NCBI GenBank assembly: GCA_003160635.1
Contig: PMLV01000201.1
Span: 1-64,000 of the forward strand
DNA: 64,000 nt
Reading direction: 5' to 3'
Origin: Acidimicrobiaceae bacterium
GTDB taxonomy: Bacteria; Actinomycetota; Acidimicrobiia; Acidimicrobiales; RAAP-2
Shown here: in pieces, positions 1,053 through 44,539 of the stretch
Layout: the number at the start of each line of letters is the position of its first letter
Numbering within the stretch: the stretch's first letter is position 1
Program-made: the position numbers and the translations under genes
Notes under the pieces: generated by a model
Told to the model about the DNA's origin: nothing
Database searches by the model: none
Seen by the model: only the letters and a program-made list of their open reading frames with translations

Positions 1053-1081
1053 GTCCAGATGGAGATAATCCACAGTTAGAC
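1053..1081. promoter_or_regulatory. StrR-type palindrome, copy 1
   Basis: GTCCAGATG, 11 bp, then CAGTTAGAC, centred at 1067. It belongs to a six-copy family with 9-bp arms and an 11-bp middle. It lies 185 bp before the TTG start of the LuxC-like gene and about 30 bp after the SMP-30 stop, so it is placed to act on the LuxC/LuxE transcript. Confidence 0.6.
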
Positions 1082-5736: not shown

Positions 5737-6072
5737 GTGGCGTTTACCAGGGTGTGTGGGCTTCAAGAATTGGCAGAAGGGCAGATGGAGTCTTACTTCG
5801 TAGACGACATCGAAGTGCTCGTGGTGTGCAGCGCCGTTGGGCTCCATGCCTTCGACGGGACGTGTCCACATGAGGATTTTCCGCTGGTGGACGGTGTGTT
5901 CGACGGTTCCACGATCGTCTGCAGCGGGCATGGGTGGATTTTCAACGCCATGACCGGGCAAGGGGTGAATCCTCCGGGGTGCCGCCTCACCGAGTACCCC
6001 ATCAAGGCGGAGAACGACGGGATCTATGTGGACGTTGACGCCGTTGTGCCGCCGCTGGCACAATCGCGCTGA
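5737..6072 (+). CDS. Rieske [2Fe-2S] ferredoxin
   Basis: A 111-residue soluble Rieske protein. The cluster ligands are seen as CPHEDF near residue 47 and CSGHGW near 66, the C-x-H plus C-x2-H pattern. Length and the absence of a membrane anchor match ferredoxin components of multi-component oxygenases rather than the large oxygenase subunit. No reductase or oxygenase alpha subunit is adjacent, so its electron partner must lie elsewhere; the P450 at the right edge is one possible but unproven client. Start is GTG 5737. An amidohydrolase follows 187 bp later. Confidence 0.9.
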   Translation: MAFTRVCGLQELAEGQMESYFVDDIEVLVVCSAVGLHAFDGTCPHEDFPLVDGVFDGSTIVCSGHGWIFNAMTGQGVNPPGCRLTEYPIKAENDGIYVDVDAVVPPLAQSR

Positions 6073-13206: not shown

Positions 13207-13235
13207 GTCCATCTGAGGAAAATGCACACTTAGAC
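13207..13235. promoter_or_regulatory. StrR-type palindrome, copy 2
   Basis: GTCCATCTG, 11 bp, CACTTAGAC, centred at 13221. It lies between the acyl-CoA ligase stop and the acyl-CoA dehydrogenase start, both on the minus strand, so it is upstream of the dehydrogenase by about 170 bp. Confidence 0.6.
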
Positions 13236-28103: not shown

Positions 28104-28132
28104 GTCCAACTGAGGAAGATCGGCACTGGACG
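28104..28132. promoter_or_regulatory. StrR-type palindrome, copy 3
   Basis: GTCCAACTG, 11 bp, CACTGGAC; the right arm is one base shorter than in the other copies, but the outer CCGTCCA/TGGACGG pairs perfectly. It lies between the SDR stop and the amidohydrolase fragment, about 105 bp before the latter's start. Confidence 0.6.
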
Positions 28133-31902: not shown

Positions 31903-31931
31903 GTCTAAGTGAGGAAGTTCATCACCTGGAC
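31903..31931. promoter_or_regulatory. StrR-type palindrome, copy 4
   Basis: GTCTAAGTG, 11 bp, CACCTGGAC, centred at 31917. It is the only copy lying between two converging genes (TauD and an SDR), so it has no obvious target promoter. Confidence 0.55.
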
Positions 31932-32943: not shown

Positions 32944-33579
32944 CTAAGAGGCGGCAGTAGCTTTGGCTGTAGACCGCCGGGAAAACTGCGCCATGAGAAT
33001 CTCGAATTCCTCAGAGATCACTTCGCCCAAATCAAGGTTCCCTTGTGCGAGCCAGGCATCGAGAGCGCGACGGTGGGTCAAGAGCGCTGTTGCCGCCACG
33101 AGAGCGCAACCCTCGTCGTGAGAGGAGAGTCCGCGCCGGGCAGCCACCGCCTTTGCCAGTTCGTCGATCTCTTCGACATGGCGATCCTGCTGACGCCCCC
33201 GCAGGGTTGGCGAGGAGACCAGCGCTCGACGGTACAGCTGCAACGATCGCCGCCTCGGAACTAAGTCGGAAGAGAACTCGACCAGGGTCGCACTCAGGGC
33301 TTCGATGTCGCTCCGAGAGCGTGGTTGGGCAAGATAGATCTCGGTCATGGACTGAAACCAAATGTGCTCGTGGGCGTAGAGAACCGATTCTTTTGTCGGG
33401 AAGTACCGGAAAAACGTTCGCGCCGAGACCCCGGCACTCTCGGCCACCTCCTCGACCGTTGTGGTGTCGTACCCCTGGGATGCGAACAGCTTGAGGGCGG
33501 CCGCACGAAGCGTACGTTCAGTGTGAGCCTTGTGCTCGTCACGCAATGAGGGGGCTCGTTTCAAGGTGTTCTGAGGCAA
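32944..33579 (-). CDS. TetR-family transcriptional regulator
   Basis: A 211-residue repressor type. The N-terminal helix-turn-helix is visible as TTTVEEVAESAGVSARTFFR followed by YFPTKESVLYAHE; the rest is the variable ligand domain. I choose TTG 33579, preceded by GGAGAAGAG, although the frame is open to ATG 33660. It is divergent from the StrR-like gene; the 33738-33767 repeat in the gap is its most likely operator (inference). Confidence 0.82.
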   Translation of the reverse strand: MPQNTLKRAPSLRDEHKAHTERTLRAAALKLFASQGYDTTTVEEVAESAGVSARTFFRYFPTKESVLYAHEHIWFQSMTEIYLAQPRSRSDIEALSATLVEFSSDLVPRRRSLQLYRRALVSSPTLRGRQQDRHVEEIDELAKAVAARRGLSSHDEGCALVAATALLTHRRALDAWLAQGNLDLGEVISEEFEILMAQFSRRSTAKATAAS

Positions 33580-33737
33580 GACTCTTCTCCGGGGCCGAGT
33601 AATAGGTGCTCGTACCTTAACTTCTCGCAGGCTCCCCCCCCTGTAGATGCATTTGCCCACCGGAGATTGCGACCCAGCTTCGGTAGGACGCGCCGCACTC
33701 CTTGACGGTCGGACCGGACTGGATTACTCTGACAGTC

Positions 33738-33784: not shown

Positions 33785-34780
33785 GTGGCTCCGCGATCGA
33801 GCAGCGCTGGTCGGAAACGGCCGGATCGCAGAACATCGGGGGCGTCGTTGGTTCAGTCGATGGTTCAGAGTTTTGAAGCAATGCCCGCGGCAGACGAGGT
33901 GGTGTCGATCGCCTTGGTCGAGCTCACGGTCTGTTCGTCGTTCCGAGAAGCGGGACTGAGCGAGGAGCACGTTCAGCGACTCGTAGCTCTGGGAGGGCAT
34001 TGGCCACCCGTTCTCGTGAACCGCGCCGACGGGTCGGTCATCGACGGGGCCCACCGCGTCGAGGCGGCCCGGCACCTCGGCTTGGATCGACTCGAGGCCT
34101 GGTATTTCGACGGTGGCGCCGAAGAGGCTTTCGTTGAGTTTGTCCGGCGGAACGTGCACCAGGGGCTCCCACTGACGTTGAGCGAACGAAAGCGGGCTGC
34201 CGAGCACGTGCTCATGACGTACCCTGAATGGTCTGACCGCCGGATTGCCGAACTTTGCGCCATTTCTCCGAAGACGGTGGGACGCCTACGGCCGAAGTCG
34301 TCGGGGCGTCCAACTGAGGGAATTCTTCAACTGGACGCTCGATCGCGGATCGGACGTGACAACAAGTGGCGGCCTGTCCACAGCGCCTCGGTCCGCTCCC
34401 GCGTCGCCGAGGCGATCAAGCAATACCCTGGTGCGTCACTCCGTTCGGTCGCGAAGTCCGTTGGCGTCTCGCCCGAGACCGTTCGCATCGTGCGTATGAA
34501 TTTGGGCACGACGAGCGTGCTCGAGCCACCGCCGCCTGCGCCGTCCCCTCCACAGTGCTCTTCGTGGAACGAGGACCTTGCCCTCGTCTCCTCTGATCAT
34601 GGGGCAGAGTTCGTCGCCTGGTTCGACCGAACGACTGTGACAAAAGAAGAGTGCTGGCGCTTCGCCGACTCGGTGCCACTCAGCCGGATATACGAGATAG
34701 CGGATGAGGCGCGGCGGCGATCTGAGGTCTGGCAACAGCTCGCAGCGTCTCTGGATACGCGGTGGGGCAAGCGGAAGTAG
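33785..34780 (+). CDS. StrR/ParB-like DNA-binding transcriptional regulator
   Basis: A 331-residue protein of the StrR type. A ParB-like N-terminal domain (PPVLVNRADGSVIDGAHRVE near residue 73) is followed by GLPLTLSERKRAAEHVL, then WSDRRIAELCAISPKTVGRL (helix-turn-helix) near 150. RIGRDNKWRPV and a second HTH, ASLRSVAKSVGVSPETVRIV, complete it. This order matches StrR of streptomycin clusters, a pathway-specific activator that binds long inverted repeats. Here it sits among catabolic genes. Six matching palindromes are in the window, one inside this gene at 34308-34336, suggesting self-control. Start GTG 33785. Confidence 0.82.
   Translation: MAPRSSSAGRKRPDRRTSGASLVQSMVQSFEAMPAADEVVSIALVELTVCSSFREAGLSEEHVQRLVALGGHWPPVLVNRADGSVIDGAHRVEAARHLGLDRLEAWYFDGGAEEAFVEFVRRNVHQGLPLTLSERKRAAEHVLMTYPEWSDRRIAELCAISPKTVGRLRPKSSGRPTEGILQLDARSRIGRDNKWRPVHSASVRSRVAEAIKQYPGASLRSVAKSVGVSPETVRIVRMNLGTTSVLEPPPPAPSPPQCSSWNEDLALVSSDHGAEFVAWFDRTTVTKEECWRFADSVPLSRIYEIADEARRRSEVWQQLAASLDTRWGKRK
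34308..34336. promoter_or_regulatory. StrR-type palindrome, copy 5, inside the regulator gene
   Basis: GTCCAACTG, 11 bp, CAACTGGAC, the best copy; outer GCGTCCA and TGGACGC also pair. It overlaps the codons for the segment linking the first helix-turn-helix to RIGRD. Regulatory use is inferred from the repeat family. Confidence 0.6.
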
Positions 34781-44510: not shown

Positions 44511-44539
44511 TAACAACTGAGGAAATTCCTCAGTCCCTG
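44511..44539. promoter_or_regulatory. StrR-type palindrome, copy 6
   Basis: TAACAACTG, 11 bp, CAGTCCCTG, centred at 44525. The outer arms are weak but the inner 19 bp (44516-44534, ACTGAGGAA-A-TTCCTCAGT) is a perfect palindrome using the same inner sequence as the other copies. It lies 198 bp before the TIM-barrel gene. Confidence 0.6.

Follow-up and report, generated by a model that had tools for sequence, protein, structure and literature searches.

Why should a gene for a StrR-like regulator carry, within its own reading frame, an inverted repeat with the layout of a StrR-type operator, and what might such a site do? The question is raised by a stretch of 64,000 nucleotides from an Acidimicrobiaceae bacterium (hereafter the window), in which the earlier note had placed a palindrome after the first helix-turn-helix (HTH) and before the RIGRD segment of a StrR-like gene. 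The quoted sequence and location matched exactly: GTCCAACTG-N11-CAACTGGAC lies at 34308-34336, inside the StrR-like frame 33785-34780, where its codons read (R)P-T-E-G-I-L-Q-L-D. Our best explanation, held overall at roughly 60%, is that the StrR-like regulator has its own operator in these 29 bp of its gene; that binding there limits the gene's transcription is the least certain part of it. The features of the locus are as follows.

32944..33660, minus strand: TetR-family regulator, the divergent upstream neighbour (domain match)
33785..34780, plus strand: StrR-like regulator gene (likely start ATG 33860)
34178..34300, plus strand: first helix-turn-helix, residues 132-172 (AlphaFold2 model; Pfam HTH_28 near 150-168)
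34304..34351, plus strand: codons of residues 174-189, which form the linker predicted to be disordered (pLDDT <50)
34308..34336, no strand assigned: embedded operator GTCCAACTGAGGGAATTCTTCAACTGGAC (sequence match; equivalent position in homologs)
34346..34375, plus strand: codons of RIGRDNKWRP, conserved segment and alignment anchor (sequence)
34382..34504, plus strand: second helix-turn-helix, residues ~200-240 (Pfam HTH_23; model)

The encoded protein comprises, in this order, a ParB/Srx-fold domain, HTH1, a linker, the RxGRD segment, HTH2, and C-terminal helices. Its membership in the StrR-like family is indicated by a ParB/Srx-like N-terminal domain with DGxHR followed by an HTH, an RxGRDGRxRP-type segment (RIGRDNKWRP), and a second HTH (HTH_23). 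The structure model, whose confidence is moderate (mean pLDDT 69.7), places the residues encoded by the embedded site in a disordered stretch (pLDDT <50 at 174-189) that links the two ordered HTH domains, and because this linker is predicted to be disordered, the protein could afford whatever the operator spells. Homology starts near residue 40, which makes ATG 33860 the more likely start; measured from the GTG that opens the longest frame, the distance to the site is 523 nt, in line with the earlier estimate of about 520 bp, and from the likelier ATG it is ~448 nt. Regulators of the StrR type activate many antibiotic clusters. The window gene resembles StrR of Streptomyces griseus in domain order, RxGRDGRxRP segment, and operator length and spacing, and differs from it in its setting, a CoA-dependent catabolic-type region of an Acidimicrobiia-like genome with no obvious antibiotic cluster. 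This genome has five StrR-like genes, and its relatives are almost all without any.

The StrR-type operator layout (29 bp, with 9-base arms and an 11-base spacer) also appears near candidate target genes elsewhere in the window:

1053..1081, no strand assigned: intergenic copy upstream of a LuxC-type acyl-CoA reductase gene
5864..5892, no strand assigned: intergenic copy upstream of an amidohydrolase gene
13207..13235, no strand assigned: intergenic copy upstream of a minus-strand acyl-CoA dehydrogenase gene
31903..31931, no strand assigned: copy between a TauD-family gene and an SDR gene whose ends converge on it

A search for 29-mers resembling the embedded site with up to 3 mismatches found 3, against 0.04 expected in shuffled windows. 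The embedded copy is not strictly the most symmetric one, as had been claimed: its outer half-sites GTCCA/TGGAC are perfect, but those at 5864 are as well; 7 of its 9 arm positions pair, a number shared by the copies at 5864 and 31903; and when 14 pairs are counted it reaches 10, compared with 11 at 31903, the copy with the best symmetry, which is not situated at a promoter. When a matrix was built from the four non-coding copies only (both orientations), the embedded site ranked fifth with a score of 30.3, while the next unrelated place scored 17.1. Among 20,000 synonymous recodings of the linker at local codon usage, one reached the score of the embedded site, the synonymous constraint on the window gene itself thus being read from one sequence and a codon null. 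In the whole 6.9-Mb genome, six sites were found with up to 2 mismatches, namely the five copies described here, on the window contig, and one on the contig of a paralog. Given the matrix score, the recoding test, and the whole-genome search, the embedded site is a member of a cluster-specific operator family and not a coding accident. Another operator-like element, GTCCAACTGAGGAAGATCGGCACTGGAC (28104-28131), is 28 bp long with a spacing one base short and lies in intergenic DNA after an SDR gene.

Orthologs within the same taxonomic family were almost absent (2/172 genomes), and since no true ortholog of the window gene turned up, constraint could be measured only on distant homologs. We therefore used 119 distinct homologs, mostly from Streptomyces, together with other Actinomycetia and Acidimicrobiia, in which the RxGRDGRxRP segment served as an anchor and the arm pairs of 29-mers were counted at 91 offsets. 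The 29-mer ending 3 nt before the anchor had at least 8 of 9 arm pairs in 15/119 homologs and at least 7 in 24/119, whereas the remaining offsets yielded at most 1 and 5 homologs, respectively. With shifts of one or two codons allowed, and a C/G core plus no fewer than 6 of the 9 arm pairs required, an operator-like palindrome was present at equivalent codons in 32/119 StrR-family genes, i.e., about a quarter; the site of the window gene is in the same reading frame, displaced by two codons (offset 9 vs. 3). Genes bearing the site are scattered over the tree (at least six changes are forced by well-supported branches) and occur in four taxonomic families. The other 87 of the 119 homologs lack it, which means that the site is dispensable for the family.

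Several embedded sites, e.g., GTTCGACCG-N11-CAGTCGAAC, match almost letter for letter the published StrR operator consensus, GTTCGActG(N)11CagTcGAAc (PMC8306873). In independently fetched plasmid records, a matching site was present in 2 of 8 regions. The exact pattern GTTCAACYG-N11-CAGTTGAAC occurred in 30 of 393 Streptomyces genomes, in which a reversed control pattern gave no match, and when one locus per genome was inspected, 10 of the 30 carried the exact consensus site in this same register of a StrR-family gene. Moreover, of the 28 genomes carrying embedded sites, 9 have no exact GTTCRACYG-N11-CRGTYGAAC other than the one in the regulator gene.

Read in frame, the operator GTTCAACTG-N11-CAGTTGAAC gives S-T-(GNN)-x-x-x-Q-L-N, which is the motif found in the proteins. 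The palindrome could in principle be a by-product of STEEIPQLN-like residues required for function. S-T and Q-L/S-N residues do recur in many homologs; however, they lie in a predicted disordered segment, 87 homologs manage without them, and they are encoded there by rare synonymous codons in arms that co-vary. In a set of 22 homologs picked solely by the protein motif [ST][TS]x5[LS]N, 167 of 198 arm pairs were found, compared with 93.3 expected (sd 5.1; maximum 115 in 5,000 synonymous recodings). Codon choice in this set was equally skewed, with CGT used for 17/18 Arg, TCA for 17/21 Ser, and TTG for 16/17 Leu, against background usages of 10, 6, and 7%. Covariation between the arms, with each pair assessed on rows chosen through the remaining pairs, was evident at pairs 3, 5, and 2 (p <1e-4, 2e-4, and 0.0013, respectively), examples being S..L encoded by TCA/TTG, S..S by TCG/TCG, P..D by CCA/GAC (the window gene), and A..H by GCA/CAC. 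The spacer, in turn, is variable at the protein level, with 31 different nine-residue strings in 32 genes. Because synonymous codons are fixed, arms co-vary, and spacer residues vary, we read the family motif STEEIPQLN as an in-frame operator that codes for a linker modeled as disordered. Requirement for the residues themselves is contradicted by codon choice in the motif-picked homologs and by arm covariation, and we give it next to no credence.

The same constraint is visible codon by codon. At the four half-site codons, synonymous differences among site-bearing homologs numbered 0/109, 1/111, 0/91, and 1/111, compared with 69/108, 35/87, 30/53, and 14/37 in homologs without the site, a comparison partly biased by palindrome-based selection, from which the test on protein-motif-selected homologs is free. 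Codons flanking the 29 bp change synonymously at a normal rate in the site-bearing homologs. The earlier note had suggested that this DNA is under both coding and binding constraint and had proposed comparing synonymous positions among orthologs; the dual constraint is strongly supported, as the half-site codons of site-bearing homologs are synonymously near-invariant rather than freely changed, and the motif-selected set agrees. Selection at the embedded site acts on the DNA letters and not only on the amino acids, which we consider close to certain.

The palindrome might alternatively work in mRNA as a hairpin, and the transcript does fold well in the window gene and in one homolog (z -3.9 and -4.0). 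Departures from pairing, however, comprise 44 ordinary mismatches and just 5 G-U pairs, the letters themselves are conserved (GTTCR...YGAAC), and intergenic DNA carries further copies of the sequence. The predominance of ordinary mismatches led us to reject the RNA hairpin as highly improbable.

The protein that recognizes the embedded site is very probably the regulator encoded by the same gene, since the site matches the StrR consensus and agrees with each cluster's own sites. This agreement is clearest in the window (GTCCA/TGGAC) and in genomes G592 (GTTCGA) and G640 (GTTCAA); matching of operator subtypes between embedded and nearby sites is confined to a few clusters (the window, G592, G640, and G719). 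Residues of the recognition helix (HTH) showed no significant association with the operator variant among the only 28 sequences compared. The half-sites of the window differ from the StrR consensus. Balhimycin/A40926-type StrR-like regulators (Bbr, Dbv4) use the operator GTCCAR(N)17YTGGAC, and the window half-sites GTCCA/TGGAC resemble this type. A site of the GTCCA/TGGAC type is also found in Nonomuraea gerenzanensis, 12 kb from its StrR-like regulator gene, which, unlike the window gene, has no embedded site. The most likely role of the embedded operator, as predicted from these matches, is that of a self-binding site for autoregulation.

How binding might be converted into regulation can be outlined in three steps. 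The regulator would bind the operator within its own coding sequence; binding ~450-540 bp into the gene would limit the regulator's own transcription, by a roadblock or sterically, which is the least certain step; and the gene product would cap its own level. In the homologs, the site lies 324 to 1077 nt after the predicted start, mostly at about 440-540 nt. Site-bearing genes rarely stand behind a co-directional gene (4/21 vs. 33/58, p = 0.004, obtained with a crude gene caller and uncorrected for relatedness), as expected if such a gene is its own transcription unit, and this rarity fits self-limitation, because a roadblock would otherwise silence an operon. The solitary embedded copy in the 9/28 genomes mentioned above fits it as well.

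StrR-type proteins are described as activators, and a repressive self-site for a protein of this type is an assumption that speaks against self-limitation. In four loci whose StrR-family genes lack an embedded site (L095, L099, L141, and L156), the operator can stand 16-38 bp beyond the stop codon; from there it could have no limiting effect on the gene's coding transcript, and a roadblock would not explain such an arrangement. Self-limitation by blocking transcription thus stands, in our estimate, at slightly below even odds. Intragenic operators as such have precedents. The lac O2 operator lies within lacZ. The Kpn2I controller is reported to be autoregulated by a roadblock, the protein blocking elongation on its own gene (PMC6237814). 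The StrR-type site shares with both its location in coding sequence and differs from them in recurring at one codon register across a diverse family and in shaping the protein sequence of the linker.

An activator could also use a site within the gene to serve another promoter, whether internal, downstream, or, by looping, the divergent upstream one. The activator character of StrR-type proteins and, with the same crude gene calls, a divergent upstream neighbour at 17 of 21 site-bearing loci are in keeping with this. Against it, synonymous change is normal on either side of the 29 bp, no promoter match lies nearby, and the next gene is ~500 bp to >1.5 kb away and on the opposite strand in 7/21 loci. 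The internal promoter raised in the earlier note finds no support for the same reasons: synonymous change is normal right beside the site, a search for a sigma-70-like promoter near it found none, and the distance and direction of the next gene vary among loci. We regard action on another promoter as rather unlikely.

The fold of the N-terminal domain suggests yet another function, in which the embedded operator would be a parS-like entry site where the protein loads and then moves, by spreading or sliding, to distant promoters, the divergent upstream one included. In Bacillus subtilis, parS is found inside spo0J/parB. The two cases are alike in that a ParB-fold protein has its site in its own gene (binding by the StrR-type protein being predicted), and unlike in the letters and length of the site and in nucleotide-dependent clamping, which is known for ParB and hypothetical for StrR-type proteins. 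The best matches of the predicted model in a structure search were Noc-DNA, ParB-nucleotide, and KorB entries (E 2.5e-5 to 6e-5), and sequence profiles matched ParB (E 0.0012), SbnI, and sulfiredoxin. KorB is a ParB-family clamp for which silencing over long distances is reported (PMC11790492). Loading would further suit an embedded copy that is often the sole exact site in a genome of 7-11 Mb, the lack of any other strong site within 10 kb at 28/30 site-bearing loci, and the divergent neighbour in 17/21.

The structure model, however, is of moderate confidence, and of the features of a ParB-type clamp, the ParB fold of the N-terminal domain and the HTH are present, the GERR-type and ENxxR boxes are absent, and DGxHR and NxxHG stand in their place. 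The nucleotide motif DGxHR (118/119 homologs) is nearer to SbnI/sulfiredoxin than to the GERR-type box of ParB, and several clusters, including that of the window, carry ordinary promoter-side copies. ParB-like loading is unlikely in our view, and it is distinctly unlikely that the regulator enters DNA at the embedded site and acts on the cluster at a distance, its own gene being the cis-acting centre of the cluster. The scarcity of further strong sites within 10 kb (2/30 site-bearing loci vs. 24/74 loci without the site, p = 0.006) is compatible with both loading and self-limitation. Nor did an embedded site prove in general to be a predictor of additional strong sites within 10 kb, as loci with the site score below those without it.

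In the open-access literature, we found no account of an operator within the coding sequence of a StrR-type regulator. The preferred reading, an operator by which the regulator limits its own transcription, would have one short DNA stretch encode a floppy protein linker and probably act as a self-control switch as well. The embedded operator explains a protein motif as DNA-level selection and offers a clear case of one sequence with two codes. If a quarter of the genes carry their own operator at fixed codons, the site can be read from the regulator gene and used in the search for targets, and autoregulation in the StrR family becomes directly testable. StrR-type genes codon-optimised for strain engineering would lose the embedded site silently.

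Among the other StrR-like genes of the genome, three paralogs have different linkers without an embedded site, and the one on contig C296 contains such a site at the same codons (TCA ACT GAG GAA ATT CCT CAG TTG, encoding STEEIPQL). The contig of another StrR-like paralog (L209) bears the operator-like GTCCAACTGAGGAAAATCCGAAGATGGAA (G000:C11:19388-19416), the sole further copy in the genome with up to 2 mismatches, which suggests shared or overlapping regulons. The C296 site is a 27-bp palindrome, perfect except for the central base, and its core, searched genome-wide with up to 3 mismatches, occurs at one other place, window positions 44514-44536 (two mismatches). The latter is the intergenic near-palindrome CAACTGAGGAAATTCCTCAGTCC, which lies upstream of a sugar-isomerase-like gene and, judging by this match, is probably a target of the C296 paralog.
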